Source: a virus
Virus record (IMG/VR): IMGVR_UViG_3300030101_000247
Location: 1 to 37,822 of that record
Reading direction: 5' to 3' (one strand)
DNA length: 37,822 nucleotides
Under the pieces are notes generated by a model. That model did not search any database. It was given only the letters and a program-made list of their open reading frames with translations, and was not told where the DNA came from. The translations under genes were made by a program, and so were the position numbers. Positions 1 to 37,822 of the stretch are shown one piece after another (the stretch's first letter is position 1; every line of letters begins with the position of its first letter).

Positions 1-1
1 G

Positions 2-139
2 ACTTCGTTATATTATTCCCTCCAAGTCATGGGCGATGTACAAGATAAGTCTGATGCTTACGCAGCGTTGGGTGATACTGACGTCGAAGATTACTTGGCA
101 GGAATACTCGAACCCACATCATGCGACTGCCAACAATGA
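2..139 (+). CDS. nrdA: Ribonucleotide reductase class I alpha subunit, C-terminal fragment (5' end outside window)
   Basis: The frame is open from the window edge to a TGA at 137-139 and encodes 45 residues. It begins TSLYYSLQVMGD, which resembles the conserved T-x-YY segment near the end of class I reductase large subunits, and ends in SCDCQQ. Such subunits carry a C-terminal cysteine pair that shuttles electrons from thioredoxin or glutaredoxin; here the pair is C-x-C rather than the usual C-x4-C. The stop overlaps the start of the next gene (ATGA), which looks like a small subunit, so the two probably form an nrdAB operon supplying dNTPs for phage replication. The call rests on a short tail plus context. 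Confidence 0.7.
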   Translation, partial: TSLYYSLQVMGDVQDKSDAYAALGDTDVEDYLAGILEPTSCDCQQ

Positions 140-852
140 ACCCCTACGAAAAATTATTATCAAGAAAAAGAACATGGACACCAGTTGTCCCCACAAAAGG
201 CGAGGTAAAATACGGTGCTGAAGAAACCATCAAACGTGCTCTCGCAATACGTCATATGGAGCTACCAGTTGGAGAATTTATTTCTCAAGGCTTGGAGAAG
301 GAGGTTCCGCATTCAGCGAGGACACTTCTTCACTCAAACGTTAAAGACGAGATTAAACATGATCTCGCTTTGGGCTACATTGTTGACGCCCACGGTGCCG
401 ACCCTCAATCAGAACTGGAGGCGATAAGATTACGTGACGCTTGGATTGCACATCCTGACCATACTATCACAAAAGCTCTCGTTGCAGAGCGAGCTATATT
501 TTTTGTTCTACTGCCTTTCTTTAGGTTTAATGGTGATGCTGCTCTCAGAACAGTATCAGCTGATATATCCCGAGATGAACAGGTCCACGTGGCAACGAAC
601 AGCTTGGTTTGCCGTGAGCTCGGTCTTAATCCTTCTCCTAGTTTGGATAAACTTCGGAAGGCAACTATTAACTGGATAGTACAACCACTAGGTATAAATA
701 CTACTGATAAATATTTAGACAAAAAATTTTGGCTGGATGCGAGCGATCAGTTAATGTATCAAGGGAAAGCTCCACAGTTTTCCGACACAAGAGCAGCTCG
801 TGTTCCAGCATTCTTTGAACATGCAAACACCAACCTCCCACAATATGCTTGA
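136..852 (+). CDS. nrdB: Short ribonucleotide reductase class I beta subunit, apparently lacking the radical tyrosine
   Basis: The 238-aa protein starts at the ATG that overlaps the nrdA stop (an upstream in-frame ATG at 121 would lie inside nrdA). It has the ferritin-like di-metal motifs of the small subunit: E72-x-x-H75 (KDEIKHD), E119 (LVAERAIFF) and E148-x-x-H151 (SRDEQVHV); E42 may be the first acidic ligand. In typical class Ia proteins the radical tyrosine lies four residues after the first metal histidine. Here that position is L79, and the nearest tyrosine is Y81. The protein is also much shorter than the usual 320-375 residues. It may use a tyrosine-independent metal or modified-residue radical. 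Family assignment is fairly secure from motifs and its position behind nrdA. Confidence 0.8.
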   Translation: MNPYEKLLSRKRTWTPVVPTKGEVKYGAEETIKRALAIRHMELPVGEFISQGLEKEVPHSARTLLHSNVKDEIKHDLALGYIVDAHGADPQSELEAIRLRDAWIAHPDHTITKALVAERAIFFVLLPFFRFNGDAALRTVSADISRDEQVHVATNSLVCRELGLNPSPSLDKLRKATINWIVQPLGINTTDKYLDKKFWLDASDQLMYQGKAPQFSDTRAARVPAFFEHANTNLPQYA

Positions 853-1018
853 GGCTATCATCGGCCCAACCATAAGCTCTATAGAAGTAGAGCTAGACGA
901 AATGTTCCCACCCCTAAATCCACATCCAAAGCAGACCATCAGCGAAGTTATGTACCTAGCTGGTCAACGCTCGGTGGTTGAGTGGTACAAGAAACGAGTC
1001 AGTAAAGATGAAGGTTGA
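845..1018 (+). CDS. Small conserved cyanophage-type protein, unknown function
   Basis: This 57-aa protein starts at an ATG overlapping the end of nrdB by 8 bases and itself overlaps the next gene. It contains MFPPLNPHP followed by EVMYLAGQRSVVEWYKKR. I recall small cyanophage proteins with a similar FPP-x-NP plus YxxGQRSVV arrangement, but I know no function. No membrane segment or metal motif is visible. An earlier ATG at 800 in the same frame would overlap nrdB more and is less likely. The overlapping junctions on both sides suggest translation coupled to nrdB. Confidence 0.65.
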   Translation: MLEAIIGPTISSIEVELDEMFPPLNPHPKQTISEVMYLAGQRSVVEWYKKRVSKDEG

Positions 1019-1436
1019 GCACGTACACCCAGCCAACCTACCAGCTGTATGGCATCAGGTAAAACCTATTGTTGATACAGCACTGACACATAATGTAGGT
1101 GAAGTAGTAGGGTCAGACTTCGTAGAGCCATTGATGACAGGAGAGAAAGATCTCTATGTTTCAGTCAATGACAACTATGAACTGACCGGTGCTCTTATCA
1201 CTACAATTAATATACATCCACAAAAGAAAGAATTGTTTGTAGATGTATGGGCTACCATTACTGGGTATGCTGATGACGAGTGTTACAAAACTTTTGAAGA
1301 AGCTTTGTTAATACTAGCTGACACCGAAGGGTGTAATTATATATCGGCATATTGCCGCAAGGGTCTATCAAGACCTTTATCTAAAAAATTAGGATGGGAA
1401 GAATCCTATTCTGTTATGACAAAACATTTACAATGA
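1008..1436 (+). CDS. GNAT-like acetyltransferase-fold protein
   Basis: The 142-aa protein starts at ATG 1008, which overlaps the stop of the preceding gene; an in-frame ATG at 978 lies deeper inside that gene. Its pattern suits a small GNAT fold: an N-terminal helix (PAVWHQVKPIVDTAL), a strand with GALITTINI in the middle, then a helix and an end of the form LSRPLSKKLGWEESYSVMTK, as in GNAT domains whose last strands follow a 'lGW..' segment. Proteins of this type often sit just before the structural genes in podoviruses. The acetyl-CoA loop is not clearly seen, so it may be a non-catalytic relative. The following gene begins after GAGGTAA. Confidence 0.5.
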   Translation: MKVEHVHPANLPAVWHQVKPIVDTALTHNVGEVVGSDFVEPLMTGEKDLYVSVNDNYELTGALITTINIHPQKKELFVDVWATITGYADDECYKTFEEALLILADTEGCNYISAYCRKGLSRPLSKKLGWEESYSVMTKHLQ

Positions 1437-1445
1437 GGTAATACT

Positions 1446-3491
1446 ATGGGCGGCGGAGGCGGCAGCAAAGGCGGCAGCAAAGGCGGCGGCGGCAACAGAG
1501 CAAACAAAAGAAAACTAAGTGGCAAAGAAAGAGCTCAAGCTGCGGCTAAGAAGAACATCAAAAACTATGGTGGTACAGCGAAAGCTGCTGCTGCTAACAG
1601 AGCTAGCAGTAGAAACAGATTTAGTCAGAACAAATTAACAAATTTATATACTGGATCATCGGACGCCAGTGCGTTTACTGGTCCGGGTCTTAACATAAGT
1701 GGTGTTGATTCAAGTAAGTTCAGCTCCTCTAGAGTAAAGACACGATACAGTAACAAAGATTACTTAACTGCAACACCATACAAGGAAGCTTTTAAACGTA
1801 CATTTTTTGGTGATGGACTACAGGGTAACAGATTTAATCCAGTAGATAGAGCAGCTGCATTAGGTGCAGGGTATACAGACTCAGTTATAGGACTAGCAAA
1901 CTTTGCTAAGAACAGGTTAGTACCATTCGGAAAACTAGCTCCTAATATACCTACGTTACCTAAGTTTCAAGATGCAAACTTACAAGGACTTAGAAACTTT
2001 GGATCAGTAGCTATACCCGGGCTACAAACATTCGGTGCAGCTCAGAGATTATCTAAGGTCGGATTAGGTCAAGAGATAAGCCAAATGAAATTACCTAATA
2101 CAGGAAAGTATGCTTTCTCTAATGCTCCGGGCGCGTTTAGACCTAAACTTACAAAGACTGGTATAGAAGGAGTGAGCCCTGCGACTATATTTTCAGCATT
2201 TACACCTAAGATGCTTGCAACAGGTCCAACAGCTGGAGGATCAGCAGCTATACTTGGTACAGCAACAGGGCTACAGGGTGGTAAAGCGTTACAGGCTGGT
2301 GGATTAAATACAGGTGAGTCTAGTGAGGATACCGGACCATCAACCCGTGATGTATTTAGCCCTAATTCTAAACTTAGATTAGCTAGAACAATTACTCCAC
2401 GTACAGCCAGAGATAAAAATATAGATTATAATATACCCGGCATAGCTAAAGATGCAGTGCTCGGTACACTTGATGCAGCTACACTTAACAAGTTTGACTT
2501 TGATAATCTAGGCCGACCCGGTGAGGATAAAACATTTACAGATAAGTTTAATACGTTTAAAGAAAGTCCATTACAGCAAGCAGTATTCTCAGCACAGACT
2601 GGACTAGACGCTAAACGTGTAATGAATGAAGGCGAGTCAGCAGCTAAAGAAATTTATAATAACTATATTAGTAAGATAGATACCGAGACAGCTCAAACAG
2701 CACGGCGACCTATCGCTGAGTTGTTTAGAGATACAGCCGGTGAAAATCAAACTGATGCTACAGCTATGGTTGGTAGAGCTATCAATGCATATAGTCAAGA
2801 TGCTGAAAACTTTAGCGACGCTCCTAACGCTCTTACAAAAAATTTAGGACGCTTTGGTATTCCACAACTTAGTGATGAAAACGTACAAGATCTACGACAT
2901 ACATTTGACAAAAGTGTAACTGAAGATACTGGCGTAGCCGGTAAGAGCTTAACAAACATTCCATACAGTCAGGCTCTTGGTCTTGCTAACAGGATAACTG
3001 CTGGTAAAGTTAAAGATGGTGTAGTTGAAAGCATGGATCAACTAGGGCTAAGAAATATTCCTAGTCTTAATGATGCAGTTGCTGTTGGTCAGCAGTTTAC
3101 AGACAATCTAGGTGATCCAGATTCAACAACCGCCAAACGTATGGGTGAGCTAGACAATTTATATAAACAGTTCGGACCGGGTGGAGGACAAGCTCCTACA
3201 ACCAAGTCAATCCTTAGAAATTTAGGAACAAAAGGAAGCGGAAGTAAACGGTCAGGACTACAATCACCGACTGGTAGACAAAGACCAGCCGAGGTACCAT
3301 TGATAGAACCTATACCTGTAGCTCCACAAACAGCTGACCCTAATTTAAAAAGTATAACACAAGAAGCATATCAAAAAAGGTTAGCTCAACTTAAACAGCT
3401 AACACCACTCCCACCTGTAATACAACAAACTCGAAGACCAGTTCCTCAATTTAATTTTAGAACTGCATTCAACAGAAATTATTTTGCATAA
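1446..3491 (+). CDS. Glycine-rich 681-aa protein, probable virion component, unknown function
   Basis: The start ATG follows a plausible ribosome site (GAGGTAA, 1436-1442). The first 16 residues are almost entirely Gly, Ser and Lys, with a near-tandem GGC-GGC-AGC-AAA codon repeat, then a basic alanine-rich stretch to about residue 60. The middle is rich in Ala, Gly, Thr and short hydrophobic helices, with no transmembrane domain. The last 60 residues are proline-rich and end in arginines and aromatics. Size, composition and position between nrdB and the portal gene suggest a structural or ejected protein. I do not recognise a family. Four bases separate it from portal, so they are probably co-transcribed. 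Confidence 0.75.
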   Translation: MGGGGGSKGGSKGGGGNRANKRKLSGKERAQAAAKKNIKNYGGTAKAAAANRASSRNRFSQNKLTNLYTGSSDASAFTGPGLNISGVDSSKFSSSRVKTRYSNKDYLTATPYKEAFKRTFFGDGLQGNRFNPVDRAAALGAGYTDSVIGLANFAKNRLVPFGKLAPNIPTLPKFQDANLQGLRNFGSVAIPGLQTFGAAQRLSKVGLGQEISQMKLPNTGKYAFSNAPGAFRPKLTKTGIEGVSPATIFSAFTPKMLATGPTAGGSAAILGTATGLQGGKALQAGGLNTGESSEDTGPSTRDVFSPNSKLRLARTITPRTARDKNIDYNIPGIAKDAVLGTLDAATLNKFDFDNLGRPGEDKTFTDKFNTFKESPLQQAVFSAQTGLDAKRVMNEGESAAKEIYNNYISKIDTETAQTARRPIAELFRDTAGENQTDATAMVGRAINAYSQDAENFSDAPNALTKNLGRFGIPQLSDENVQDLRHTFDKSVTEDTGVAGKSLTNIPYSQALGLANRITAGKVKDGVVESMDQLGLRNIPSLNDAVAVGQQFTDNLGDPDSTTAKRMGELDNLYKQFGPGGGQAPTTKSILRNLGTKGSGSKRSGLQSPTGRQRPAEVPLIEPIPVAPQTADPNLKSITQEAYQKRLAQLKQLTPLPPVIQQTRRPVPQFNFRTAFNRNYFA

Positions 3492-3494
3492 ACA

Positions 3495-5063
3495 ATGACA
3501 TCAAAATCTAGGTATGATAGTTTATCCAGTGATCGTTCCCAGTTTTTGACCGAAGCAGAAGACGCGACTAAACTTACATTACCATATCTCATCAGAGGAC
3601 ACGAAGATACCTCTATGGGTATGAAACAACTGAAGACACCTTGGCAGTCTGTAGGGGCTAAAGGAGTTGTAGCGTTAGCATCAAAGCTATCACTATCACT
3701 CGTGCCTCCACAGACCAGCTTCTTTAAGCTGCAGCTAGATGAGTCTCAGCTAGGAGAACAGTTTGGTCCGGAAGTAAAATCAGAACTTGACTTATCGTTT
3801 GCAAAGATAGAGCGTACAATCCTTGACGCTATCGCTGCATCAGATGATCGTGTAGTAATACACCAAGCATTACAACATCTAGTTGTAGGTGGTAATGCTC
3901 TTATCTTCATGGGTAAGGATGGGCTGAAGTTATATCCTCTTAATCGCTACGTGATAGAACGAGATGGCAACGGCGACGTGATTGAAATTATCACAAAAGA
4001 AAGAATCAATAAAGATCTGATTCCTAACTACGAACAGATCGCACCAGAGATGAGTTACAACGATGACGAAGACATAGGCAAGAACGAATGTGATGTCTAC
4101 ACACACGTCAAGCGTGACAACAATAGATTTATCTGGTATCAAGAAGTACATGGTAAGGCACTACCCGGCTCGAATGGTAAGGCACCTGTTGACAGTACAC
4201 CATGGCTACCTCTACGTTTTAACACAGTAGATGGTGAAGCATATGGTAGAGGTAGAGTAGGACAGTTTATCGGAGATCTTAAGTCTCTCGAAGCATTGTC
4301 TCAGGCTATCGTAGAAGGCTCTGCAGCAGCTGCTAAAGTTGTGTTTACTGTATCACCCTCAGCTACTACTAAACCACAGACGCTGGCGGCTGCAGGCAAC
4401 GGAGCGATTGTGCAAGGCAGACCAGACGACATAGGTGTAATACAAGTTGGGAAGACGGCTGACTTTGCTACGGCATTGCAGCACATGCAGACACTCGAGA
4501 GAAGGTTGAACGAAGCGTTCCTGATCCTGTCAGTTCGGCAGTCAGAACGTACAACAGCTGAAGAGGTACGTATGACACAGATGGAACTCGAACAACAATT
4601 GGGTGGACTCTTTGGGCTCCTGACTGTAGAGTTCCTCGTACCTTATCTCAACAGAAAACTTAGTATCTTTCAGAAGCGTGGTGACATACCACGTATACCA
4701 AAGGGTATTGTTAAGCCTATCATTGTAGCTGGTATCAACTCACTAGGCAGAGGTCAAGATGCACAAGCATTAGGAGCTTTCCTACAAACCATTGCACAAA
4801 CAATGGGACCAGATGCAATAGGTACATACATAAATGCAGAAGAAGTTATCAAGCGTCTAGCAGCTTCACAAGGTATTGATGTATTGAATCTAGTTAGATC
4901 AATGGAAGAGGTACAGCAAGAAAGACAACAAGTACAGCAAGAACAAACAGACGCAACACTACAGGAAAGAATACCTGATATAATGAAGACACCTTTAATG
5001 GACCCAACTAAGAATCCGGAACTATTACAAGGCGGACAACCACAGCAAGCACCACCACAATAA
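3495..5063 (+). CDS. Portal protein (head-tail connector), T7 gp8-like
   Basis: The 522-aa length matches podovirus portal proteins (T7 gp8 is 536 aa). The portal ring sits at one capsid vertex, through which DNA is packaged and ejected and where the tail attaches. The N-terminus (SRYDSLSSDRSQFLTEAEDA, then LPYLI, TPWQSVGAKGVVALASKL and LSLVPP) is typical of the T7-like group. The middle has the TTAEEVRMTQMELEQQLG segment seen before the long helix of these proteins, and the C-terminus is a glutamine-rich coiled tail (EEVQQERQQVQQEQ). The next gene, the scaffold, starts two bases after the stop. Confidence 0.93.
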   Translation: MTSKSRYDSLSSDRSQFLTEAEDATKLTLPYLIRGHEDTSMGMKQLKTPWQSVGAKGVVALASKLSLSLVPPQTSFFKLQLDESQLGEQFGPEVKSELDLSFAKIERTILDAIAASDDRVVIHQALQHLVVGGNALIFMGKDGLKLYPLNRYVIERDGNGDVIEIITKERINKDLIPNYEQIAPEMSYNDDEDIGKNECDVYTHVKRDNNRFIWYQEVHGKALPGSNGKAPVDSTPWLPLRFNTVDGEAYGRGRVGQFIGDLKSLEALSQAIVEGSAAAAKVVFTVSPSATTKPQTLAAAGNGAIVQGRPDDIGVIQVGKTADFATALQHMQTLERRLNEAFLILSVRQSERTTAEEVRMTQMELEQQLGGLFGLLTVEFLVPYLNRKLSIFQKRGDIPRIPKGIVKPIIVAGINSLGRGQDAQALGAFLQTIAQTMGPDAIGTYINAEEVIKRLAASQGIDVLNLVRSMEEVQQERQQVQQEQTDATLQERIPDIMKTPLMDPTKNPELLQGGQPQQAPPQ

Positions 5064-5064
5064 C

Positions 5065-8262: not shown

Positions 8263-9342
8263 ATGGCACAAACTATCCAACTTACAAAAGAAACCAGCAA
8301 CTGGGATAAGTTTTGTGAGTGGGTAACAAGCACCAACAACCGCCTCTACGTGGGGTGGTTTGGTGTTCTTATGATACCTACTTTACTAACAGCAACCACT
8401 TGCTTTATACTTGCTTTCATCGCAGCACCGCCTGTAGACATTGACGGCATACGCGAACCAGTTTCCGGTTCCTTACTATTTGGAAACAATATTATATCAG
8501 GAGCAGTCGTCCCCTCCTCTAACGCAATCGGACTACATTTCTACCCCATCTGGGAAGCCGGCACACTTGACGAGTGGCTATACAATGGCGGACCTTACCA
8601 ACTTGTTGTCTTTCATTTTTTGATAGGAATAGCAGCCTATGCTGGAAGACAGTGGGAACTATCTTACAGACTCGGAATGAGACCTTGGATCTTTGTAGCT
8701 TACACAGCTCCAGTATCAGCAGCTCTTGCTGTATTCTTAGTCTACCCTTTCGGACAGGGGAGTTTTAGTGATGGTATGCCTCTTGGTATCTCTGGTACTT
8801 TTAACTTTATGTTCGTATTCCAAGCAGAACACAATATCCTTATGCATCCGTTCCACATGCTCGGCGTTGCTGGGGTATTCGGTGGAGCTCTTTTCGCTGC
8901 TATGCATGGAAGTCTCGTTACTTCTTCGCTCATTAGAGAAACTACTGGATTGGAGTCTCAGAACTATGGCTACAAGTTTGGTCAGGAGGAAGAGACTTAT
9001 AATATCGTGGCTGCTCATGGTTATTTTGGCAGACTAATTTTTCAATATGCAAGCTTTAACAATTCTCGTGCTCTACACTTTTTTCTGGCTGTATGGCCAG
9101 TCGTGGGCATATGGCTCACCTCTATGGGGATAGCTACCATGGCATTTAACTTGAATGGTTTTAACTTTAACCAGTCAATATCTGATGCAAATGGTAAGAT
9201 AGTTCCTACATGGGCTGACGTCTTAAACAGAGCCAACCTTGGCTTTGAGGTTATGCATGAGCGTAACGCACACAACTTCCCATTAGACCTAGCAGCAGCT
9301 GAGTCTACACCTGTAGCTCTTACAGCACCAGCAGTAGGTTAA
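8263..9342 (+). CDS. psbA: Photosystem II reaction centre protein D1
   Basis: A full-length 359-aa D1. The residues of the oxygen-evolving and electron-transfer sites all sit at standard positions: Tyr161 (YZ), Asp170, Glu189, His190, His198, His215, Ser264, His272, His332, Glu333, His337, Asp342 and Ala344. Cleavage after Ala344 would remove a 15-residue tail. Position 130 is Gln, the form of low-light D1, rather than Glu. There is no intron or frameshift. D1 turns over quickly in light, and phage copies keep photosystem II working while host expression fails. The gene lies directly after hli, with no gap, and the following small gene overlaps its stop. Confidence 0.99.
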
Positions 9343-9464: not shown

Positions 9465-9526
9465 CTTATTTATTATGTCTGGTGTCACTCGACACTGGCA
9501 ACGTACCCACTCAACTACTACTGATA

Positions 9527-10376: not shown

Positions 10377-11549
10377 ATGGCTCAACAGAATAGCACATTG
10401 ACCACGGCTCTTACACGTCCGGGTCAACTTAATAGTGCCGGTGATTCCCGTGCACTTTATTTAAAGCTGTTCAGTGGAGAGATGTTCAAAGGCTTCCAGC
10501 ATGAAACTATTGCTAGAGACCTTGTAATGAAGAGAACCCTTACTAACGGTAAGAGTCTCCAGTTCATCTACACTGGACGCACAAAAGCCGAGTATCATAC
10601 ACCCGGCAACAGCATACTAGGTAACACAGATGGTGCACCACCAGTAGCTGAGAAAACCATTACAATCGATGACCTATTAATCAGTTCAGCGTTTGTATAT
10701 GAGCTAGATGAAACACTAGCACACTATGAATTGAGAGGAGAGATTTCCAAGAAGATTGGTTATGCTCTTGCACAAAAGTACGATAGACTTATCTTCAGAG
10801 CTATCGCTAAAGGTGCTAGACAAGCTTCTCCAGTTTCTAAGTCTGGTTTTGTAGAGCCCGGCGGAACACAAATCCGTGTCGGTACTTCTGCACAGGCTAA
10901 CAACGCATACGACTCAGCTAAGCTAATAGAAGCATTCTATGATGCTGCTGCTGCCCTTGACGAAAAGGGAATTTCTACTGATGGTAGAGTCGCTGTGTTG
11001 AACCCAAGACAATACTACGAATTGATACAAGCTGTCGGTTCTAACGGTCTTGTCAACAGAGACGCACAAGGTACAGCGTTACAGTCCGGAAACGGAATCA
11101 TTGAGATTGCAGGCATCAAGATCTTCAAGTCAATGAACATCCCATTCTTCGGATCATACGGTACTAAGTACGGATCTGCGTCTGCAACAAACCCCGGTGT
11201 AGCAGATCCCGGAAACACAGGTTCCTTTATTGGAGAGACTGCAGAGGACGGTAGAAAGTCCGTAACAGGTCTTAACAATAACTATGGTAACGCAACAGAT
11301 TTCGCTAACAGCTGCGGACTAATCTTCCAAAAGGAAGCCGCTGGTGTTGTAGAAGCTATCGGACCACAGGTTCAGATTACTTCTGGCGACGTTTCAGTTG
11401 TCTACCAAGGTGATGTGATTCTAGGACGTCTTGCAATGGGTGCAGACTTCTTAAACCCTGCTGCATGCGTAGAGCTTGTTGCTGGTGCTGCTACTGGATC
11501 TACCGGTAACGCAACATTCGGTAACACATACCCAGAAAACAGCAACTAA
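10377..11549 (+). CDS. Major capsid protein, T7 gp10-like
   Basis: The 390-aa protein fits the T7 gp10A family (about 345-400 aa, HK97 fold). Recognisable elements are the N-terminal domain with LYLKLFSGEMFKGFQHETIA, the loop LTNGKSLQFIYTGRTKAEYH, TPGNSILG, the ITIDDLLISSAFVYELDE strand and EISKKIGYALAQKYD helix, and AGIKIFKSMNIPFFG near the centre. Hundreds of copies build the shell. A strong intrinsic terminator follows 15 bases after the stop, as in T7, which allows high capsid output relative to downstream genes. Confidence 0.95.
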   Translation: MAQQNSTLTTALTRPGQLNSAGDSRALYLKLFSGEMFKGFQHETIARDLVMKRTLTNGKSLQFIYTGRTKAEYHTPGNSILGNTDGAPPVAEKTITIDDLLISSAFVYELDETLAHYELRGEISKKIGYALAQKYDRLIFRAIAKGARQASPVSKSGFVEPGGTQIRVGTSAQANNAYDSAKLIEAFYDAAAALDEKGISTDGRVAVLNPRQYYELIQAVGSNGLVNRDAQGTALQSGNGIIEIAGIKIFKSMNIPFFGSYGTKYGSASATNPGVADPGNTGSFIGETAEDGRKSVTGLNNNYGNATDFANSCGLIFQKEAAGVVEAIGPQVQITSGDVSVVYQGDVILGRLAMGADFLNPAACVELVAGAATGSTGNATFGNTYPENSN

Positions 11550-29867: not shown

Positions 29868-31210
29868 ATGAAGAAGTAGATTCTACAGCTATCATCAACG
29901 AGATTATTGGTCCTGATGAAGAAGAGCAAGAAGCAGCGTTTGAGATAAATAGAAGAAAGCTAAACGAAGCAAGACAGAGACAGAATGAAGGTAGAGCACA
30001 ACGGCAGCTTGAGGCTGTAAATAAAGTTTTACCAAAATTTACTATAGCAGATATTTCTGAAGGCTTATCAGACATGAAAGCTGGTCAAACAGGTGCTATG
30101 CTTGGTGGTAGTATTCTTGGAGAATATCTACCTTTACCTAAAGGTATAGGAGAAACGCTAGGAGCTGGCGGTGCTTTAGCAGCTAAAAAACTTGTTATTG
30201 ACCCAATAGTTGATGAGATATTTAACACAACTAGAAGCATATTTAATATAGCTAAAGAAGCTCCTTCTGGACGTATGTTTGGTGTAACAGCTGGAGGTGA
30301 AGGCATTAAGGGTGGCGGTAAATATGTTAATGCAACAAAGAAAAATCTAGAATATTTTAATAAGATAGGGTTCACTGGAACCAATAAACTAGATATACAG
30401 ACTATGTTGTATGGTATTGATGATGCTGGTAAACCGGCTATGAGTCAGTACAAACGTAGAGCTATAAAAGCCGGCCTTGGAAACGAGACTTTTGACTGGG
30501 GACAGTTTAACAAAACTAGAGAGGTTCTAGTTAAAGATTACCTAGACGGTCTACAAGATCTTAAAATAGATCCTAAAACTATACATGCACACCACATATC
30601 AGCTTTACGTGTTACAGCATCATTGTTCGACGGTCTATCACCTATACAGCGTAAAAAGCTACTTAAGACCTTTCAGAAAGAAGGTTTAGCACTAGGAAAC
30701 AGTCCTAAAAACTTAATGGCTTTGCATAAAAGTGTTCACTTAGATGTTGTGCACCCGTTTTTAGAAAAACAGCTTGGTAAGTATGGACAGCTGCTACTAG
30801 ATCCAGCTAGAATGAAAAGACTGAATCCTAGGCAAAGAGAAGGTTTAGTTAAGCAGTTTGCAAATATTATTAGACATTCAGAAGAAGTAGCTCTAGATGC
30901 TAGCAGAACATGGCTAGACGAGGCTTTTACAGGAGCAACACCAGATCAGGCATTAAGTGTTAAGCTTGATATGTTAGATTCAGCATTTGAGGAAAGAATA
31001 AAAGGTTTAAGATTATTAAAAAATAAACTTGATACTATCGGACCTTATTTACCTTATATGGCAGAAGATGCACCTGTTCCAGAAATACTTAGAACTAGAG
31101 TAAGGAAAAAAAGTGGCAAGAAGTTACTAGATAACTTATTAAAACCATATGACAAAGATCAACTTACAATATGGGATATAGATCCAGAAACCTTTAGTAA
31201 AAGTAAATGA
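29864..31210 (+). CDS. 448-aa protein with HNH-like histidine motif, unknown
   Basis: The start overlaps the HNH stop (ATGA). The N-terminus is acidic and helical, with a glycine-rich hydrophobic segment (AMLGGSILGEYLPLPKG and GETLGAGGALAAKK). Residues 241-245 read HAHHI and are followed by GNSPKNLMALHKSVHLDVVHPF (N279, N283, H288, H292, H297), a pattern close to an HNH or colicin-like nuclease core. The C-terminus is basic (RVRKKSGKKLLDNLL). It lies just before the large terminase. A nuclease fused to a membrane-interacting region, perhaps ejected, is one guess. Family not recognised. Confidence 0.65.
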   Translation: MNEEVDSTAIINEIIGPDEEEQEAAFEINRRKLNEARQRQNEGRAQRQLEAVNKVLPKFTIADISEGLSDMKAGQTGAMLGGSILGEYLPLPKGIGETLGAGGALAAKKLVIDPIVDEIFNTTRSIFNIAKEAPSGRMFGVTAGGEGIKGGGKYVNATKKNLEYFNKIGFTGTNKLDIQTMLYGIDDAGKPAMSQYKRRAIKAGLGNETFDWGQFNKTREVLVKDYLDGLQDLKIDPKTIHAHHISALRVTASLFDGLSPIQRKKLLKTFQKEGLALGNSPKNLMALHKSVHLDVVHPFLEKQLGKYGQLLLDPARMKRLNPRQREGLVKQFANIIRHSEEVALDASRTWLDEAFTGATPDQALSVKLDMLDSAFEERIKGLRLLKNKLDTIGPYLPYMAEDAPVPEILRTRVRKKSGKKLLDNLLKPYDKDQLTIWDIDPETFSKSK

Positions 31211-32952
31211 CAGATAACGATATAGTAACCGCCCTTAAAGAAGACTTCAAGCTTTTCCTACAGGCATTGTGGGATCAGCTTGACCTACCACAACCTACGA
31301 GGGCACAATATGCAATTGCAGATTACTTGCAGAATGGTCCCAAGCGACTACAGATACAGGCGTTTAGAGGAGTTGGTAAGAGCTGGATTACTGGTGCTTT
31401 TGTTCTTTGGACTTTATTTAATGACGCCGAAAGAAAGATAATGATTATATCTGCATCTAAGGAAAGAGCAGATAACATGTCTATATTCTTGCAGAAACTA
31501 ATTATTGAAACACCTTGGTTATCATACTTACAACCTAAATCAGATGAGAGCAGATGGTCACGTATATCGTTTGACGTTAACTGCTCACCACACCAAGCAC
31601 CTTCTGTTAAGTCAGTAGGTATTACAGGACAGTTAACCGGATCTCGTGCAGACCTAATTGTATTAGATGACGTCGAGGTGCCGGGTAACAGTATGACGGA
31701 GTTTATGCGTGAAAAGCTACTACAACTATGTACTGAAGCGGAGTCGATCCTTACCCCGAAGGACGATAGCCGTATTATGTATCTCGGGACTCCTCAGACT
31801 ACTTTTACTGTTTATCGTAAGCTGGCAGAGCGTTCGTATCGTCCCTTTGTTTGGCCCTCCCGATATCCAAGAAAAGCCAAACTCAGTCAGTACGAAGGAC
31901 TCCTAGCACCACAGATACAGGAAGACCTTGATATGGGAGCTGACGAGTGGAGTGTCACAGATCCCGACAGGTTTAGCGAAGAGGACCTAATAGAACGTGA
32001 AGCATCTATGGGTCGGAGCAACTACATGCTTCAATTTCAATTAGATACGAGTTTATCAGATGCAGAAAAGTTCCCTCTTAAAATGGCTGACCTTGTGGTT
32101 ACTAGCGTCAACCCTACTACTGCTCCTGATAACGTGGTCTGGTGTTCAGATCCAAAAAACGTTATCAAAGACGCCCCTACGGTGGGACTGCCCGGGGATT
32201 ACTTCTACTCACCCATGCAGCTACAAGGAGAATGGGGTCCATATTCCGAAACCATTTGTTCCGTAGACCCCTCTGGAAGAGGTACAGACGAGACTGCAGC
32301 AGCTTTCCTAAGCCAACGCAATGGGTTTGTATACCTACACGAAATGAGGGCCTACAGAGACGGTTACAGCGACAATACACTGCTTAACATACTGCGTGGT
32401 TGTCGTAAGTATAACGTAACTAAACTTGTAATAGAGACAAACTTTGGAGATGGTATTGTAAGTGAACTATTTAAGAAACATATTCAACAAACGAGACAAT
32501 ATATCGATATCGAGGAGGTTCGTGCCAGCGTTAGGAAAGAAGACAGAATTATTGACGCTCTTGAACCTGTGCTTAACCAGCATCGTCTTGTTGTGGATCG
32601 TGCTGTTATCGACTGGGACTATACGTCTAACAAGGACGCCCCTCCTGAAAGTCGACTTCTCTACATGCTCTTCTACCAGATGAGTCGTATGTGCCGTGAG
32701 AAGGGTGCAGTTAAACATGATGACAGATTAGACTGTCTAGCACAAGGCATCAAGTATTATACAGATGCGATGTCAATTAACGCTCACGACACCATTGTAC
32801 AGCGTAAAAGAGAGGAATGGGAGTCTATATTAGAGGATTTCTTAGAATGTCCACATAGATCAGCTAATCACCTCGTAATGGGCATGGATAAGGACCAAAG
32901 AGAGCAAGCAATGGGTCTAGAAGGCAATTCTAACGTAAATACGTGGATATAA
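31207..32952 (+). CDS. Terminase large subunit, T7 gp19-like
   Basis: The 581-aa length matches T7 gp19 (586 aa). ATPase motifs: FRGVGKS (residues 53-59, Walker A), LIVLDD (150-155) plus E157 (Walker B). The nuclease domain shows D354 (CSVDPSGRGTDE), E410 (LVIETNFGDG) and D505-D506 (HDDRLDC). The protein drives DNA into the prohead and cuts the concatemer. The 4-base overlap ties it to the preceding gene, and it is the last gene of the late operon. Confidence 0.96.
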   Translation: MTDNDIVTALKEDFKLFLQALWDQLDLPQPTRAQYAIADYLQNGPKRLQIQAFRGVGKSWITGAFVLWTLFNDAERKIMIISASKERADNMSIFLQKLIIETPWLSYLQPKSDESRWSRISFDVNCSPHQAPSVKSVGITGQLTGSRADLIVLDDVEVPGNSMTEFMREKLLQLCTEAESILTPKDDSRIMYLGTPQTTFTVYRKLAERSYRPFVWPSRYPRKAKLSQYEGLLAPQIQEDLDMGADEWSVTDPDRFSEEDLIEREASMGRSNYMLQFQLDTSLSDAEKFPLKMADLVVTSVNPTTAPDNVVWCSDPKNVIKDAPTVGLPGDYFYSPMQLQGEWGPYSETICSVDPSGRGTDETAAAFLSQRNGFVYLHEMRAYRDGYSDNTLLNILRGCRKYNVTKLVIETNFGDGIVSELFKKHIQQTRQYIDIEEVRASVRKEDRIIDALEPVLNQHRLVVDRAVIDWDYTSNKDAPPESRLLYMLFYQMSRMCREKGAVKHDDRLDCLAQGIKYYTDAMSINAHDTIVQRKREEWESILEDFLECPHRSANHLVMGMDKDQREQAMGLEGNSNVNTWI

Positions 32953-33002: not shown

Positions 33003-33024
33003 GGAGGAGACTAACATCTCCTCC
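33003..33024 (+). other. Perfect 8-bp hairpin downstream of terminase
   Basis: GGAGGAGA (33003-33010) and TCTCCTCC (33017-33024) pair perfectly over a 6-base loop. No T-run follows, so an intrinsic terminator is unlikely. Just upstream, 32953-33000 carries CCCT/AGGGG and GGGT/ACCC partial complementarity, so a folded RNA or a packaging signal is possible. This stretch (32953-33084) has no convincing gene, although a GTG frame from 32986 runs through it. Confidence 0.6.
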
Positions 33025-33084
33025 TACCTATACCGGTTATCATATGAGTTGATAACTCTCAATACACCACTCCTAACCACTAAT

Positions 33085-33575: not shown

Positions 33576-33776
33576 ATGACAAACATTCAGACTCAACCTA
33601 AGACAGCCTTCGGCAGAACATTACACTATGTTACTGATGAGTGTCAAGCTCAAGCTTTACAATCTTTAACAGGTAAGAAAACACTAACAGATAATGATTT
33701 AATTAGTTTACAAATGCTAGGTCTACAAATCAACGGCACTAACTTTATACAACAATTAGAATTAGTAGGAGTTTAG
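33576..33776 (+). CDS. 66-aa early protein of unknown function
   Basis: It has a strong ribosome site (AGGAG at 33565-33569, 6 bases before ATG), unlike most late genes. The product is hydrophilic with a Gln-rich region and no motif I know (NIQTQPKTAFGRTLHYVT, QLELVGV at the end). It is the first gene behind the early promoter, so it may interfere with host functions, as early T7-like proteins do; this is an inference from position only. Confidence 0.65.
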   Translation: MTNIQTQPKTAFGRTLHYVTDECQAQALQSLTGKKTLTDNDLISLQMLGLQINGTNFIQQLELVGV

Positions 33777-33778
33777 TT

Positions 33779-33952
33779 ATGGATCTACAAAAGTTTAAGT
33801 TCTATCATCATTCAGCAGAATATTATAGACAGTTATATAATTCAATCAAACAACTAGAGGATAGTTGTAAAGAAGTAAACTATACAGTATATCCTTCAAC
33901 AATAACAAATGCTCGCAAGAGTGTATTCAGAAAACATATTAAGAATAAATAA
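33779..33952 (+). CDS. 57-aa early protein, unknown
   Basis: ATG 33779 follows AGGAG (33766-33770) and the frame ends in TAATG overlap with the next gene. The product (MDLQKFKFYHHSAEYYRQLY, SIKQLEDSCKEVNYT, basic C-terminus KHIKNK) is rich in Tyr and Lys. I do not recognise it. The gene is very AT-rich compared with those after 34349. Confidence 0.65.
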   Translation: MDLQKFKFYHHSAEYYRQLYNSIKQLEDSCKEVNYTVYPSTITNARKSVFRKHIKNK

Positions 33953-34245
33953 TGACAACTAAAATAAAAGAATATGTAGTTCAATTAGAAATAGATATTG
34001 ATTGTCAAGAACTACTAGATGCAATTGGATTACCTTATGAACAATCATTAGATGATGATACACAGAATGTAGTTACAATGCGAATGCCATATGATGAGTA
34101 TAAAGAATACATAACAGATAATATTGTATTTGAACAATGTAATGAACAACATATTGCAAATGCATTATTAAATGCTGAACTTAGTGAATATACAACAAAA
34201 GCAACTATATTTAAACCAAATGGTGATACTATTTCATTTTATTAA
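33952..34245 (+). CDS. 97-aa acidic early protein, unknown
   Basis: It is coupled to the previous gene by TAATG. The sequence is acidic, starts KIKEYVVQLEIDIDCQELLD and includes DDDTQNVVTMRMPYDEYKEY. The shape suggests alternating strands and helices. It could be a DNA mimic or inhibitor, as acidic early phage proteins often are, but nothing specific supports that. It is the last gene of the first early group. Confidence 0.65.
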   Translation: MTTKIKEYVVQLEIDIDCQELLDAIGLPYEQSLDDDTQNVVTMRMPYDEYKEYITDNIVFEQCNEQHIANALLNAELSEYTTKATIFKPNGDTISFY

Positions 34246-34251
34246 GTTATA

Positions 34252-34280
34252 TTTACATAGTATTATTATTTTGCTATAAT
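34252..34280 (+). promoter_or_regulatory. Consensus sigma-70 promoter
   Basis: TTTACA (34252-34257) and a perfect TATAAT (34275-34280) are 17 bases apart, with an extended -10 TGC. This is the strongest host-type promoter I see in the window. It lies in a 103-base gap and would start transcription around 34287, upstream of a repeated box and the gene at 34349. Confidence 0.8.
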
Positions 34281-34306
34281 ATAAGTATGACACCAAATTA
34301 TCACAA

Positions 34307-34332
34307 ATTCACAATCTATTCACAATCACAGC
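34307..34332 (+). repeat. TTATTCACA-like direct repeats (DnaA-box-like) in the early control region
   Basis: ATTCACAATC occurs at 34307-34316 and 34318-34327, in tandem. TATTCACAATCACAGC (34317-34332) recurs at 36961-36976, and 13 of its bases at 33417-33429. At 36960-36968 the exact string TTATTCACA fits the bacterial DnaA box TTATNCACA; the other copies differ by one base. They could bind a host or phage factor. Only the 36961 copy lies within a gene. Confidence 0.5.
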
Positions 34333-34348
34333 TAGGACGCACACACTC

Positions 34349-34627
34349 ATGTTATATCATTTAACTTATGGCCGCAACACACCGACAGGCCGCGTGTCAG
34401 ACCTTGACTGGCAGATGTATTGCCAAGAGGTACTCGACGCTAATTTCGACGGTTACACTATTCAAGACGCAACGGGAACGTGGAAGTCTGACTTAGAAGA
34501 TACCAAGATAGTTAGCATTGACACACGCAACAGAGACAAAGTCGAGGGTGTTGCACAATTATACAAAGAGATGTTTGACCAAGACGCAGTTGGTCTATTT
34601 ACTACACCATCAATGGAGTTTATTTAA
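34349..34627 (+). CDS. 92-aa early protein, DUF3574-like
   Basis: The start LYHLTYGRNTPTGRVSDLDW and ATGTWKSDLEDTKIVSIDTR recall the pattern of the DUF3574 family ('YFGR..P.G..VS...W...L', then 'GxW'). No catalytic residue is known for that family. It follows the consensus promoter at 34252-34280. From here on codons are less AT-rich than in 33576-34245. The stop overlaps the next start. Confidence 0.6.
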   Translation: MLYHLTYGRNTPTGRVSDLDWQMYCQEVLDANFDGYTIQDATGTWKSDLEDTKIVSIDTRNRDKVEGVAQLYKEMFDQDAVGLFTTPSMEFI

Positions 34628-34788
34628 TGCAACAATGGTCACAGAAATACTACGCTACACTGACTCACAACCAACACGTAGTCAATAATCATTGGTTCTT
34701 TCAAATGCTATCACTACTCAAGGACGATGGCATTTTATATGTACCAAACTTAGATAAAAAATTCAACAAACAAGGAGAAGAAGTATGA
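34627..34788 (+). CDS. 53-aa early protein, unknown
   Basis: A TAATG overlap joins it to the previous gene and ATGA to the next. The product begins MQQWSQKYYATLTHNQHVVN and has WFFQMLSLLKDDGILYVPNL. Similar short 'ILYVPNL' endings are seen in hypothetical phage proteins, but no function is known to me. Confidence 0.6.
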   Translation: MQQWSQKYYATLTHNQHVVNNHWFFQMLSLLKDDGILYVPNLDKKFNKQGEEV

Positions 34789-35213
34789 CAAATTGTAAAC
34801 AAGACGCAGCAGATGCTATCATGGACACATACACACCACTCGACGTCAAGGACATCATCACAGAGGGTGCAAAGAAACATGCAAGGTATCACGTCACAAG
34901 AGATGAGGTGCTAAGCTTTTACGCTGATCACAACGACGGCGTACACCATGAGTTACTTGACTCAGACCCTAGGACATTTGCAATGTATCAGTTCTTTCAA
35001 GCTTGTTACAATGAGTCAACCAAGTCACACACAGATCAGTGGTTCTTTATCAGGGACGTAGTCTGGTTGTACATTGACACTATTGCAGCACAACTTGCAA
35101 CAGAGCATGACTTATACGATACACCACGTAAAGTTATCGAGGATGAGGTCTTACGCATAGACTTAGCACGTAGAAAGGTAGACTTACAGATCATAGATGG
35201 AGGTAAGTCTTGA
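34785..35213 (+). CDS. 142-aa early protein, unknown
   Basis: An AGGAG site (34773-34777) lies 7 bases ahead of the start. The product is helical, mildly acidic, with HARYHVTRDEVLSFYADHND in the N-terminal half and EDEVLRIDLARRKVDLQIID at the end. I do not recognise a family. It is the last gene before the promoter at 35229. Confidence 0.65.
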   Translation: MTNCKQDAADAIMDTYTPLDVKDIITEGAKKHARYHVTRDEVLSFYADHNDGVHHELLDSDPRTFAMYQFFQACYNESTKSHTDQWFFIRDVVWLYIDTIAAQLATEHDLYDTPRKVIEDEVLRIDLARRKVDLQIIDGGKS

Positions 35214-35228
35214 TTTACTGACAATTAC

Positions 35229-35257
35229 TTGTCTTTCTTGTAAATCATTGCTAATAT
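35229..35257 (+). promoter_or_regulatory. Extended -10 promoter giving a near-leaderless message
   Basis: TTGTCT (35229-35234), a 17-base spacer ending in TGC, and TAATAT (35252-35257) form a promoter of the same type as that at 34252. The next ATG begins only 7 bases after the -10, where transcription should start, so the transcript may have no or almost no 5' leader. An alternative -10, TATAAT at 35255-35260, shifts this only slightly. Confidence 0.6.
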
Positions 35258-35263
35258 AATAGT

Positions 35264-36109
35264 ATGAATATCTTTGTTACCGACCGCTGCCCAATACAGT
35301 CAGCCCGCAACCTACCCGACAAGCACATTGTCAAGATGCCACTCGAGACTTGCCAAATGCTGTCCATTATATACAGCGACTGGTATTACGGCGTCGGCAA
35401 GTTATACAAGTCAGACGGCGTACCATATCGCACATCACACGGTGCATTTCGCAACCATCCATGTACACAGTGGGCTGCTGCCAACCAATACAATCTTGCA
35501 TGGCTTATTGCACACGGCATTGCTTTGTGTCACGAGTACACTGCACGTTATCACAAACGTCACACTTGTCACGACGTCATCAGGCAAGCACTTGTTATTT
35601 ATACCAGATGCTTCAGTCATTGGCCTAGTTCACAAGCATACCGCAAAGTCACGTCATTTACACGTGCCATGCCAGAATCTATCAAGTTCGACACTACTAT
35701 CGACACTATCACTGCATACAAGCAGTATCTTAACACCAAGCCGTGGCTAGCTACCAACTATCTACGCATACCATCACGCAAACCATCATTTATTATTACC
35801 ACCATGCAAACAGTATCATCAAAAGACATCAACTACAACGACGACATCATTGACCTTGATGCACTCACACCATCACAACAACAGCAAGCCAAGTCATTAG
35901 AGAAAGCTATGGCAGCAGCAGATGCTACCAAGGGTCTAGTTCCTGCACCCAAGAAAGCCAAGAGAGGTGGCAAAGCAGGCAGAATCGTAGGTATATCAGC
36001 AGACGAGAACAAATATATCCAAGACTTGTTACAGTTTGTTTCAGATGACCCACATTTCGGTTCAAGCAACCCAAACTATGCTAAAATACAAGCAAGATAC
36101 AATAAATAA
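35264..36109 (+). CDS. Pyrimidine dimer DNA glycosylase-like (T4 endonuclease V family-like) protein
   Basis: The N-terminal ~165 residues match a family found in marine phages and annotated as pyrimidine dimer DNA glycosylase: MNIFVTDRCPIQSARNLPDK, HIVKMPLETCQMLSIIY, GAFRNHPCTQWAAANQYNLA, WLIAHGIALCHEYTARYHKR. It could repair UV damage in phage DNA, useful in surface water. The C-terminus (residues about 190-281) is different: acidic, then Ala/Lys-rich linker and a small helical end, perhaps a protein interaction part. The match is by recalled pattern and the catalytic residues are not verified. Confidence 0.65.
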   Translation: MNIFVTDRCPIQSARNLPDKHIVKMPLETCQMLSIIYSDWYYGVGKLYKSDGVPYRTSHGAFRNHPCTQWAAANQYNLAWLIAHGIALCHEYTARYHKRHTCHDVIRQALVIYTRCFSHWPSSQAYRKVTSFTRAMPESIKFDTTIDTITAYKQYLNTKPWLATNYLRIPSRKPSFIITTMQTVSSKDINYNDDIIDLDALTPSQQQQAKSLEKAMAAADATKGLVPAPKKAKRGGKAGRIVGISADENKYIQDLLQFVSDDPHFGSSNPNYAKIQARYNK

Positions 36110-36122
36110 TTAGGAGATAATC

Positions 36123-36614
36123 ATGCCAAACCACTGCCACAACAGGGTCATTATATATGGCTCAGGCAATGACACAGAAGAAACACGTGAGCAGATAGCC
36201 AAGCTCAAGGAGATATTCGAGGGCAAATCTATCTTTACTCACTTCATACCAGAACCTGACTGGGAGAACACACCACTTATGTCTAATCAACTCAAAAGGT
36301 ATGGCAACGACAGAGGTAAACTAGGTGAGCTACCACAATACGTCGACACAGGCTACGGCAAATCGTTGAGGTTTGTATCAACAGACGAGCCTGACGACAG
36401 GTGGTATGATTGGAGACTAGCTAACTGGGATACCAAGTGGGACGCATACGAAGTCTCAATTGACGACGATGATCCTGATCAACTTGAGGTATCATTTGAA
36501 ACAGCATGGTCTCCACCAGAAGCTATATGCCATGCCATGAGAGATAAATACCCTGACCTAGCAGTCTCGTGGTTCTACGATGAGCCCGGCTGTGAGATAG
36601 CGGGGTACTTATGA
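36123..36614 (+). CDS. YubB/DUF1281-like ferredoxin-fold protein
   Basis: The ribosome site AGGAG (36112-36116) lies 6 bases before ATG. The 163-aa product has the family's features: MPNHCHNRVIIYGS at the start, F-x-HFIPEPDW, a central WYDWRLANWDTKWDAYEV, and SFETAWSPPEAICHAM towards the end. These proteins are common in phages and plasmids; their function is not settled. Its stop overlaps the next start. Confidence 0.72.
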   Translation: MPNHCHNRVIIYGSGNDTEETREQIAKLKEIFEGKSIFTHFIPEPDWENTPLMSNQLKRYGNDRGKLGELPQYVDTGYGKSLRFVSTDEPDDRWYDWRLANWDTKWDAYEVSIDDDDPDQLEVSFETAWSPPEAICHAMRDKYPDLAVSWFYDEPGCEIAGYL

Positions 36615-36835
36615 CAAGAGATGACACGCCCGAGACATGGGCAGGCAGCAAGGCTAGAGTTGTCAAGCCATTGTATATGCTAATCAAGCTTGAGGTTGAT
36701 GCTGATGTAGTCAAGTCACAAACTGATGCCAACACTTATTGCGAGAATCATTGCAATTCTTTACAGTATGAGCTTGTTGACTATCATTATCCTATAAAAT
36801 ATAGTGAACGCCATTACCCATACATTGCATTATGA
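36611..36835 (+). CDS. 74-aa early protein, unknown
   Basis: ATGA overlaps link it to both neighbours. The start TRDDTPETWAGSKARVVKPL and the middle LIKLEVDADVVKSQTDANTY are unremarkable. It has a plausible small alpha/beta fold with the strand LIKLEVDAD, but I recognise no family. Confidence 0.55.
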   Translation: MTRDDTPETWAGSKARVVKPLYMLIKLEVDADVVKSQTDANTYCENHCNSLQYELVDYHYPIKYSERHYPYIAL

Positions 36836-36981
36836 AACTAACAGAACTAGAGATAGCTGAGATATGCTACGACATACCTAAACAAAAGAATACTAAAGGT
36901 AGAAAGAAGCCACAAGCTCTTCGTGCTGCTAAAAAACGTGCGAAGCAACTTATACAACGTTATTCACAATCACAGCCATGA
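36832..36981 (+). CDS. 49-aa basic early protein
   Basis: The product MKLTELEIAEICYDIPKQKN followed by TKGRKKPQALRAAKKRAKQL is helix-rich and strongly basic at its C-terminus. The last codons contain the TTATTCACAATCACAGC repeat, so this DNA may serve two roles. It overlaps neighbours by ATGA at both ends. Confidence 0.55.
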   Translation: MKLTELEIAEICYDIPKQKNTKGRKKPQALRAAKKRAKQLIQRYSQSQP

Positions 36982-37196
36982 CCGACCTATACCGTTACTA
37001 CTGTGCCGAGACTGATGACGGCAGACACTTCTGTCTTATGGCCAAAGATGCAATGGAAGCTGCATACAGAGCAGATGCCATGTGCAAGGACTGGTATAAG
37101 ACTACACTCAAGGACGTTTACCTTGACCGACATGATAACCCTAACAGGAGATACAAACCCTATGACGAAGAAATACTTTCCAAACAACTACAATAA
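36978..37196 (+). CDS. 72-aa early protein, unknown
   Basis: The product (MTDLYRYYCAETDDGRHFCL, KDAMEAAYRADAMCKDWYK) has three Cys and a mixed charge pattern. Its start overlaps the stop of the previous gene. A different frame is open over the same DNA from 37003, but it has no good start until 37162, so I take this frame as the gene. Confidence 0.6.
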   Translation: MTDLYRYYCAETDDGRHFCLMAKDAMEAAYRADAMCKDWYKTTLKDVYLDRHDNPNRRYKPYDEEILSKQLQ

Positions 37197-37497
37197 GATA
37201 GCTAACAGCCCTGCCGAATGGTTTGAGCCTATGGAGTACGACTTGTTTATGGATTGGAAGATGAATGGATGGGTTATGATGCCAGAGACTGAGTGTATCA
37301 TTCGTACAGTTCATTGCGTGACAGGTAAAGTCAAAGAGTACACATATCAAAGACGTTCTGCAGCTAAAAAGAGATTGGCACAGTTGTTGCAAGAACATCA
37401 GCATGAGCTTATAATATGTACCGAGGATAACATACAGCATCTCAAACCAGAACAATACATTACGGAGCACGATGAAGAGAACTTCTATCCCAAGTGA
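37162..37497 (+). CDS. 111-aa early protein, unknown
   Basis: I place the start at ATG 37162, after AGGAG (37146-37150). The frame is open from 37003 but that part overlaps the previous gene. The product (YFPNNYNKIANSPAEWFEPM, WKMNGWVMMPETECIIRTVH) is mixed alpha/beta with a C-terminal acidic segment. I recognise no family. It overlaps the previous gene by 35 bases and the next by 26. Confidence 0.55.
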   Translation: MTKKYFPNNYNKIANSPAEWFEPMEYDLFMDWKMNGWVMMPETECIIRTVHCVTGKVKEYTYQRRSAAKKRLAQLLQEHQHELIICTEDNIQHLKPEQYITEHDEENFYPK

Positions 37498-37687
37498 TGA
37501 CGTCTACACTTACGAAAAACAGGCGTTAGACATGCTCTCACCAGAGCATCCACATTACCACGAGGTATATCAGCACCTATACAATCAGATATACGACCAG
37601 AAACATGACATACGTAACACCCAACCAGCTAGACGAGCAGATACAACTAGAGAGAACACAGATTTCGCAAGGACTGAAGAGACTTAG
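37472..37687 (+). CDS. 71-aa early protein, unknown
   Basis: The product starts MKRTSIPSDDVYTYEKQALD, has MLSPEHPHYHEVYQHLYNQI and an end rich in Arg and Thr. The last 83 bases overlap the start of the RNA polymerase candidate in another frame, and the low-complexity end may not be translated as read. I recognise no family. Confidence 0.45.
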   Translation: MKRTSIPSDDVYTYEKQALDMLSPEHPHYHEVYQHLYNQIYDQKHDIRNTQPARRADTTRENTDFARTEET

Positions 37688-37822
37688 AGATCAGACGTTC
37701 AAGTTAGAGCAACAGAACTATGCATCTGCTAGTTTGTATGGCATTGCATCAGTAGAAACATTACTGCCGCTTGTTGTTGATCAGATTATGTCGACTAATC
37801 AGAAGATACATCAAGGCAAGTA
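37605..37822 (+). CDS. T7-like phage RNA polymerase, N-terminal fragment (continues beyond window)
   Basis: The frame from ATG 37605 stays open to the window end. It reads QLDEQIQLERTQISQGLKRL and then LEQQNYASASLYGIASVETL LPLVVDQI. The T7 polymerase N-terminal domain has the same layout: a helix with '.EQLALE', and a later 'TTLLPKMIARI'. Single-subunit polymerase transcribes the middle and late phage genes. The identity rests on about 70 residues plus context (last of the early genes in T7-like phages), so it is a fair but unproven call. Confidence 0.65.
   Translation, partial: MTYVTPNQLDEQIQLERTQISQGLKRLRDQTFKLEQQNYASASLYGIASVETLLPLVVDQIMSTNQKIHQGK

Follow-up and report, generated by a model that had tools for sequence, protein, structure and literature searches.

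The T7-like coliphages T3 and T7 contain very few EcoRII sites (CCWGG). For double-stranded DNA phages, Rusinov et al. (2018; PMC6286503) report that about one viral genome in ten has eliminated a site completely or almost completely. On the bacterial side, Iyer et al. (2008; PMC2292703) describe operons in which MORC proteins occur alongside cytosine methylases and Vsr nucleases, and another paper (PMC9523054) covers an mzaABCDE system whose MzaA is called a sigma factor. Both count as predicted restriction-modification systems. Here we analyzed a 37,822-bp stretch of viral DNA (IMG/VR virus record IMGVR_UViG_3300030101_000247, G000), the whole of which we call the window. Its gene families and nearest named relatives, cyanopodoviruses infecting Prochlorococcus and Synechococcus, identify it as a T7-like cyanopodovirus, and it lacks CCWGG entirely. 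The window resembles the cases of Rusinov et al. in that a palindromic Type II site is all but eliminated, but differs in that two sites, CCWGG and CCGG, are linked by the genetic code and one alone can go. Compared to T3 and T7, the cyanophage has other hosts and probably other enzymes, its loss is complete, and some of its relatives avoid CCGG in parallel. Site avoidance as such is already known. What is new is that the code obliges phages to choose between CCWGG and CCGG, a pattern visible across many relatives and paralleled by a host locus with interchangeable cassettes. The main text of Rusinov et al. (PMC6286503) does not contain the words Prochlorococcus, Synechococcus, cyanophage, CCWGG, codon, or dipeptide, and no paper on cyanophage site avoidance or dipeptide effects was found in the open-licence PMC literature.

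Neither CCAGG nor CCTGG occurs on either strand of the window, where a maximal-order Markov model over the full length expects 32.5 copies. The resulting z-score of -5.7 is the lowest among the palindromes tested in the window, i.e., 4-mers, 6-mers, 5-mers with a central W, S, or N, and 7-mers with a central W or S. Within open reading frames (ORFs), 200 synonymous-codon shuffles gave a mean of 48.1 sites and a minimum of 39, against none observed; the shuffled set comprised 42 mechanically chosen ORFs (36,021 bp), of which three small minus-strand ORFs are probably not genes. These counts bear out the original prediction, made by a model from the letters alone, that CCWGG is wholly missing where roughly 30 copies would be predicted. 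Its tally of 39 Pro-Gly pairs, all using CCC or CCG, proved exact (39/39, with CCA or CCT in 0/39), and other prolines are indeed mostly CCA or CCT (414/489, with CCC or CCG in 75/489; Fisher p = 3e-29 versus Pro-Gly). The site is missing from the small-ORF region past the terminase gene too. CCWGG was lost via synonymous choice, across all frames. Selection against the site is well supported, because it is absent in every frame, was removed by synonymous recoding, and shows six label changes on the phylogenetic tree described below.

Two explanations that dispense with selection on the site were rejected. Translational selection against the codon pair CCW-GGN fits the recoding of every Pro-Gly pair, but CCWGG is missing from the window ORFs outside these pairs as well (0 versus 18.1 expected), and other cyanopodoviruses spell Pro-Gly in the opposite way (CCW in 36/36 pairs of P-SSP6 and 34/34 of R27W); it is scarcely credible. 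Mutational decay, in which C5-methylated CCWGG would be lost by deamination without selection, gains some footing from the existence of a Dcm-like methyltransferase in Prochlorococcus. Its products are nevertheless not clearly raised in the window (observed/expected CTWGG 60/52.6, CCWAG 61/61.7) or in its sister contig G584 (67/64.6 and 84/76.2), and the Pro-Gly codons differ from CCWGG at the middle base (W to S), a change not obtainable by deaminating a methylated C. These two observations make decay highly improbable.

The loss is specific to the site and is not an effect of base composition. Words reported as frequent in the original prediction are present in number (CCCGG 27, CCGGG 20, CCTTGG 10, and CCATGG 7), CCGG is raised (71 versus 44.9), and other sites match or exceed expectation (observed/expected CCSGG 47/25, GATC 138/143, GGWCC 26/25, GGCC 39/38). 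The original prediction was right that GATC, GGWCC, and GGCC are present, but it missed the rise in CCGG and the scarcity of GCGC, which occurs once (at 2131) versus 24.2 copies expected by the Markov model or 41.2 by the shuffle; CCWGG is thus not the sole avoided site. The scarcity of GGATCC (0 versus 8.1) and ACTAGT (1 versus 12.0) is less telling, because ACTAGT is low in most of 18 cultured relatives and GGATCC in approximately one third, and host DNA is itself somewhat poor in both.

The genetic code sets a limit on what such recoding can achieve. Pro-Gly is encoded by CCN GGN, in which A or T at the third position gives CCWGG and C or G gives CCGG; therefore, a phage that retains Pro-Gly necessarily retains one site or the other. 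We examined 253 phage sequences (the window, L002-L099, and L249-L402) and counted the 148 contigs of at least 7 kb, scoring as avoiders those with observed/expected below 0.35 and a Poisson p below 0.02. There were 33 contigs that avoid CCWGG and 34 that avoid CCGG, with none avoiding both (Fisher p = 5e-5); removing near-duplicates left 135 contigs with 32, 31, and 0, respectively (p = 6e-5). These p values ignore phylogeny, and the code by itself makes some of the exclusivity inevitable. GGWCC and GGCC likewise cover every Gly-Pro spelling, but exclusivity was not shown for this pair among the 148 contigs (14 and 32 avoiders, one avoiding both; p = 0.15). GGWCC is also gone from L345, L346, L364, L366, and L369 (0 versus 4-6 each), all of which keep GGCC.

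Phages low in both sites retain their leftovers mostly at Pro-Gly codons. The contig G608 (L364) has no CCWGG, and 16 of its 18 ORF CCGG sites are CCSGG at Pro-Gly (4/4 CCSGG within the locus), while G609 (L369) has no CCGG and 18 of its 19 CCWGG sites fall at Pro-Gly (6/6 within the locus). CCWGG is similarly placed in P-SSP6 (36/43), L345 (4/4), and L337 (11/12); the share of residual sites at Pro-Gly is lower in G614 (22/27), G616 (20/27), and G617 (18/23). In the window, 39 of 48 ORF CCSGG sites fall at Pro-Gly, overlaps being counted twice.

Comparison with relatives shows that avoidance has changed repeatedly. The ten nearest relatives by terminase large subunit (TerL; 89-92% identity) have 0 to 2 CCWGG apiece and no GCGC, and the 44.6-kb sister contig G584 lacks both (0 versus 41.3 CCWGG; 0 versus 28.5 GCGC). 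Many farther relatives retain CCWGG and are without CCGG instead. Among cultured phages, P-GSP1 (observed/expected 0/41) and P-SSP2 (1/38) avoid CCWGG, whereas P-SSP6 and R27W (0/36 each) and, more weakly, NATL1A-7 (13/40) avoid CCGG. In a rapidly built TerL tree with 99 rows, in which short loci with too few expected sites were scored as non-avoiders, 15 CCWGG avoiders correspond to 6 changes and 18 CCGG avoiders to 11 changes, none avoiding both; both labels are clustered beyond 500 shuffles. By the Markov model, CCWGG is close to expectation and CCGG is not strongly reduced in 11 phages whose recorded hosts are Synechococcus. This set excludes P-SSP2, whose record lists a Synechococcus host and which we take to have been isolated on Prochlorococcus. 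By codon shuffle, some Synechococcus phages have about half of the expected CCGG (e.g., DSL-LC07, 38/78), which is milder than the near-total losses elsewhere.

Other palindromes are affected as well. All five cultured Prochlorococcus phages examined (P-SSP7, P-SSP6, R27W, P-GSP1, and NATL1A-7), and P-SSP2 as well, have lost the majority of the copies of one or more short palindromes. CGWCG is absent from P-SSP7 (L082; 0 versus 17) and P-SSP2 (L096; 0 versus 16); we know of no named enzyme for this word, and its loss may point to an undescribed specificity. P-GSP1 (L090) is jointly low in CCWGG, GGCC, CTGCAG, CAGCTG, and GCSGC (0-1 each versus 11-41), as if it had encountered several restriction systems.

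We then consider the host side. The psbA gene of the window has its top matches in Prochlorococcus (88%) among the 80 best matches in the genome collection, although the psbA of a phage says little about its host. Of the 249 genomes in the genus that includes Prochlorococcus sp. AG-321-E21, 66 encode a C5 methyltransferase (PF00145). By BLAST, a Dcm-like family 46-53% identical to E. coli Dcm was found in at least 9 of these 249 genomes, a count drawn from 30 loci plus further regions read rather than from all 66 genomes. The alignment to Dcm covers 289-322 residues in eight members and 129 in one (read as a 119-aa piece), and the target-recognition region resembles that of Dcm in the three members aligned (L215, L238, and L192). 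As in E. coli, Vsr is adjacent to the methyltransferase, in all nine genomes (Pfam-confirmed in G016). In E. coli K-12, only vsr lies beside dcm among the genes shown, whereas six of the nine Prochlorococcus genomes add a Mza/MORC or other putative defence module. The neighbors in G016 (L243) match PADLOC models of MzaB, C, D, and E together, and homologues of MzaB-E stand in the same order in G035 (L244, 34-46%) and G188 (L248, 64-79%). Other genes follow in G091 and G196, and more distantly in G096, including one PDC-M33A-like gene in G091. To our knowledge, no sequence specificity has been established for Mza.

The original prediction had proposed a Dcm/EcoRII-like host system. Its first half is matched by the Dcm-like methyltransferase with Vsr in wild Prochlorococcus, but the adjoining genes are Mza/MORC or PDC-M33A-like, not EcoRII. 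Scanning 400 genomes for an EcoRII-C nuclease gave a single weak hit (G108; 29 bits, covering part of the profile), and the 3-kb contig that bears it has no Dcm-like gene; G108 carries other C5 methyltransferases elsewhere. The MvaI/BcnI family was likewise found in 1 of 400 genomes (G365). A solved-structure search also placed the G365 enzyme in this family, but gave nothing useful for two other candidate restriction endonucleases.

The Dcm-like locus adjoins a SIMPL-domain gene and has a conserved two- or three-gene block on its far side. Seven fetched loci (including L211, L219, L237, and L243-L246) show both flanks with differing cassettes between them. One such cassette, in G023, combines a LlaMI-family restriction endonuclease with a methyltransferase of its own, which shares 42% identity with Dcm, and with Vsr. 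LlaMI cuts CCNGG. A HaeII-family restriction endonuclease in G250 is of interest for GCGC; the HaeII site is RGCGCY, whereas the entire GCGC word is missing in the window. No paper treating tycheposons, Prochlorococcus, and restriction-modification together was found in the open-licence PMC literature.

These enzymes raise the alternative that the agent is not Dcm-like, but is a CCNGG system of the LlaMI type or an enzyme of the MvaI/BcnI type, in which case clearing CCWGG would be the larger part of the escape possible. Both families are represented, the LlaMI-type enzyme at the same locus, and P-SSP7 is low in CCNGG outside Pro-Gly (CCWGG 9 versus 18.7, CCSGG 0 versus 4.8). In the window, however, CCSGG is not selected against (9 versus 5.5 outside Pro-Gly, and 39 at Pro-Gly). 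This weakens a CCNGG-only agent for the window, while leaving room for a CCWGG cutter of the MvaI type here and for a CCNGG system acting on P-SSP7-like phages. We regard this alternative as unlikely overall.

The reading that we favor, with a probability of about 0.72, is that the window lineage shed every CCWGG, largely synonymously, under restriction of unmodified CCWGG in its natural Prochlorococcus hosts. Such restriction would select for phages in which silent recoding clears the site across the genome; clearing it forces CCSGG, hence CCGG, at each Pro-Gly, such that only one of the two sites can go. The likely agent would be a mobile cassette combining a Dcm-like C5 methyltransferase, Vsr, and a restriction module of the Mza/MORC type or another. 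The cassette genes would have to restrict CCWGG, and the virus of the window would have to meet hosts that bear them.

Several observations weigh against restriction by such a cassette. The Dcm-like gene is uncommon (at least 9 of 249 genomes), for three of its nine carriers the sequence read showed no defence module, and the cassette-bearing host genome G016 itself has CCWGG near expectation (113/136 over 160 kb). Many Prochlorococcus genomes lack restriction-modification systems, with typically 0 to 1 per genome (PMC8262939). The question whether phages of hosts without such a system lack the site equally received a mixed answer: the 11 Synechococcus phages are near expectation, which favors host restriction, but P-GSP1, which avoids CCWGG fully, is recorded on Prochlorococcus MED4. 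Known avoidance also concerns orthodox Type II enzymes (PMC6286503), and the agent may therefore be something other than Mza. A correct Mza link would make this case an exception to the rule; otherwise, an unseen Type II partner would be the agent.

A final point on this side concerns methyltransferases encoded by the phages themselves. In one search, a C5 methyltransferase of 296 aa turned up in 3 of 13 records, namely G615, G616, and G617 (L463, L464; G617:C1:31228-31857). These phages are doubly depleted; they avoid CCGG (not CCWGG) and, in addition, GGWCC. The protein is not close to the Dcm-like family, its best match being the methyltransferase of the HaeII-type locus (approximately 33-36% over 165 residues). 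Because of these three phages, some relatives may combine avoidance with methylation. Our confidence in host restriction as the cause is nonetheless unchanged, because the window and G584 contain no such enzyme: neither PF00145 nor PF01555 was found in either. Similarly, no C5 methyltransferase was found in about 28-30 other cyanophage records searched, no N4/N6 methyltransferase in 25 records including the window, and no DNA methyltransferase family in the 22 window ORFs scanned, the window being a fragment. The gp12 of P-SSP7 is annotated as a DNA methyltransferase, but Pfam gives it no family and the window has no gp12 homologue.

It is also conceivable that the phage's own nuclease cuts CCWGG to degrade host DNA, so that the phage itself must be without the site. 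The window does encode an HNH endonuclease (Table 1) and several small ORFs without any family. However, relatives whose CCWGG counts are normal (e.g., S-RIP2, S-RIP1, and S-B28) also have an HNH gene annotated close to their terminase genes, and we consider this explanation very unlikely.

A further effect, at the level of the proteins, is possible, though somewhat less likely than not. Host cassettes that swap related specificities at one Prochlorococcus locus may pin phages, which would choose one site and, under double attack, drop Pro-Gly dipeptides; DNA defence would then reshape viral protein. In support, Pro-Gly is the most depleted of 361 dipeptides in G608 (16 versus 38.1, p = 4.5e-5), the second most depleted of 318 in G609 (18 versus 33.9), and the fifth most depleted of 365 in G616. 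The Pro-Gly ratio tracks CCNGG depletion outside Pro-Gly across 39 genomes (Spearman 0.50, p = 0.001, ignoring phylogeny), and aligned orthologues show few Pro-Gly gains in several doubly depleted phages. Pro-Gly is undepleted in the window (39 versus 37.2) and G584 (49 versus 43.8). There are also counterexamples: Pro-Gly stands at 1.16 of expected in NATL1A-7 and 1.19 in G591 despite both sites being low, at 0.94 in P-SSP6, at 0.71 in G619 without strong site loss, and at 0.72-0.78 in G618, P-GSP1, and P-SSP2 while CCGG is raised. At positions aligned between orthologues, the doubly depleted phages do not keep Pro-Gly significantly less often than other Pro-X or X-Gly pairs (p 0.25 to 0.88), and their Gly-Pro, too, is lower (0.53 versus 0.68). 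Because of the counterexamples, the null result at aligned positions, and the lower Gly-Pro, the protein-level effect is tentative.

The main features of the window are collected in Table 1. Its families include the T7-like head-tail adaptor, head assembly protein, major head protein, psbA, and terminase. The window is an incomplete genome, because the block from RNA polymerase to DNA polymerase found in relatives is absent; the complete or near-complete relatives fetched span 42.6 to 47.7 kb. A 2OG-Fe(II) oxygenase gene (9482-10075) sits between psbA and the capsid gene, and the ORF at 35264-36109 has a pyrimidine dimer DNA glycosylase domain (Pyr_excise). A small ORF at 34349-34627 matches DUF3574, matches an S-AdoMet lyase family below the cut-off, and weakly matches a PHROG named SAM-dependent methyltransferase (E = 0.0018). 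The S-AdoMet lyase of T3 is of the anti-restriction type.

Table 1. Features of the window, with the state of their Pro-Gly codons or other remarks.
Feature	Position	Strand	Remarks
ORF, 681 aa, no PHROG family	1446..3491	+	Six Pro-Gly pairs, 6/6 CCC/CCG
Portal (head-tail adaptor)	3495..5063	+	Pro-Gly at 4164 recoded
psbA (photosystem II D1)	8263..9342	+	Cyanophage marker
Major capsid protein	10377..11549	+	Pro-Gly recoded at 10419, 10602, 10857, 11193, 11208
Long ORF, tail tubular protein B position	12211..14826	+	Named by gene order/synteny only; four recoded Pro-Gly pairs
Long ORF, gp16-like internal virion protein position	18140..22288	+	Named by gene order/synteny only; eight recoded Pro-Gly pairs
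HNH endonuclease	29541-29867
Terminase large subunit (TerL)	31207..32952	+	Tree marker; Pro-Gly at 31681 and 32191 recoded
Small-ORF region past terminase	33576..37822	+	Zero CCWGG; early-gene side judged from relatives

In streamlined Prochlorococcus, restriction is regarded as rare (PMC8262939), and the widespread loss of palindromes in Prochlorococcus phages contrasts with this supposed scarcity. The trade-off imposed by the code predicts that pairs of specificities such as CCWGG and CCGG are not jointly escapable by silent change. The Dcm-like methyltransferase beside Mza is a testable candidate for a CCWGG-dependent defence.

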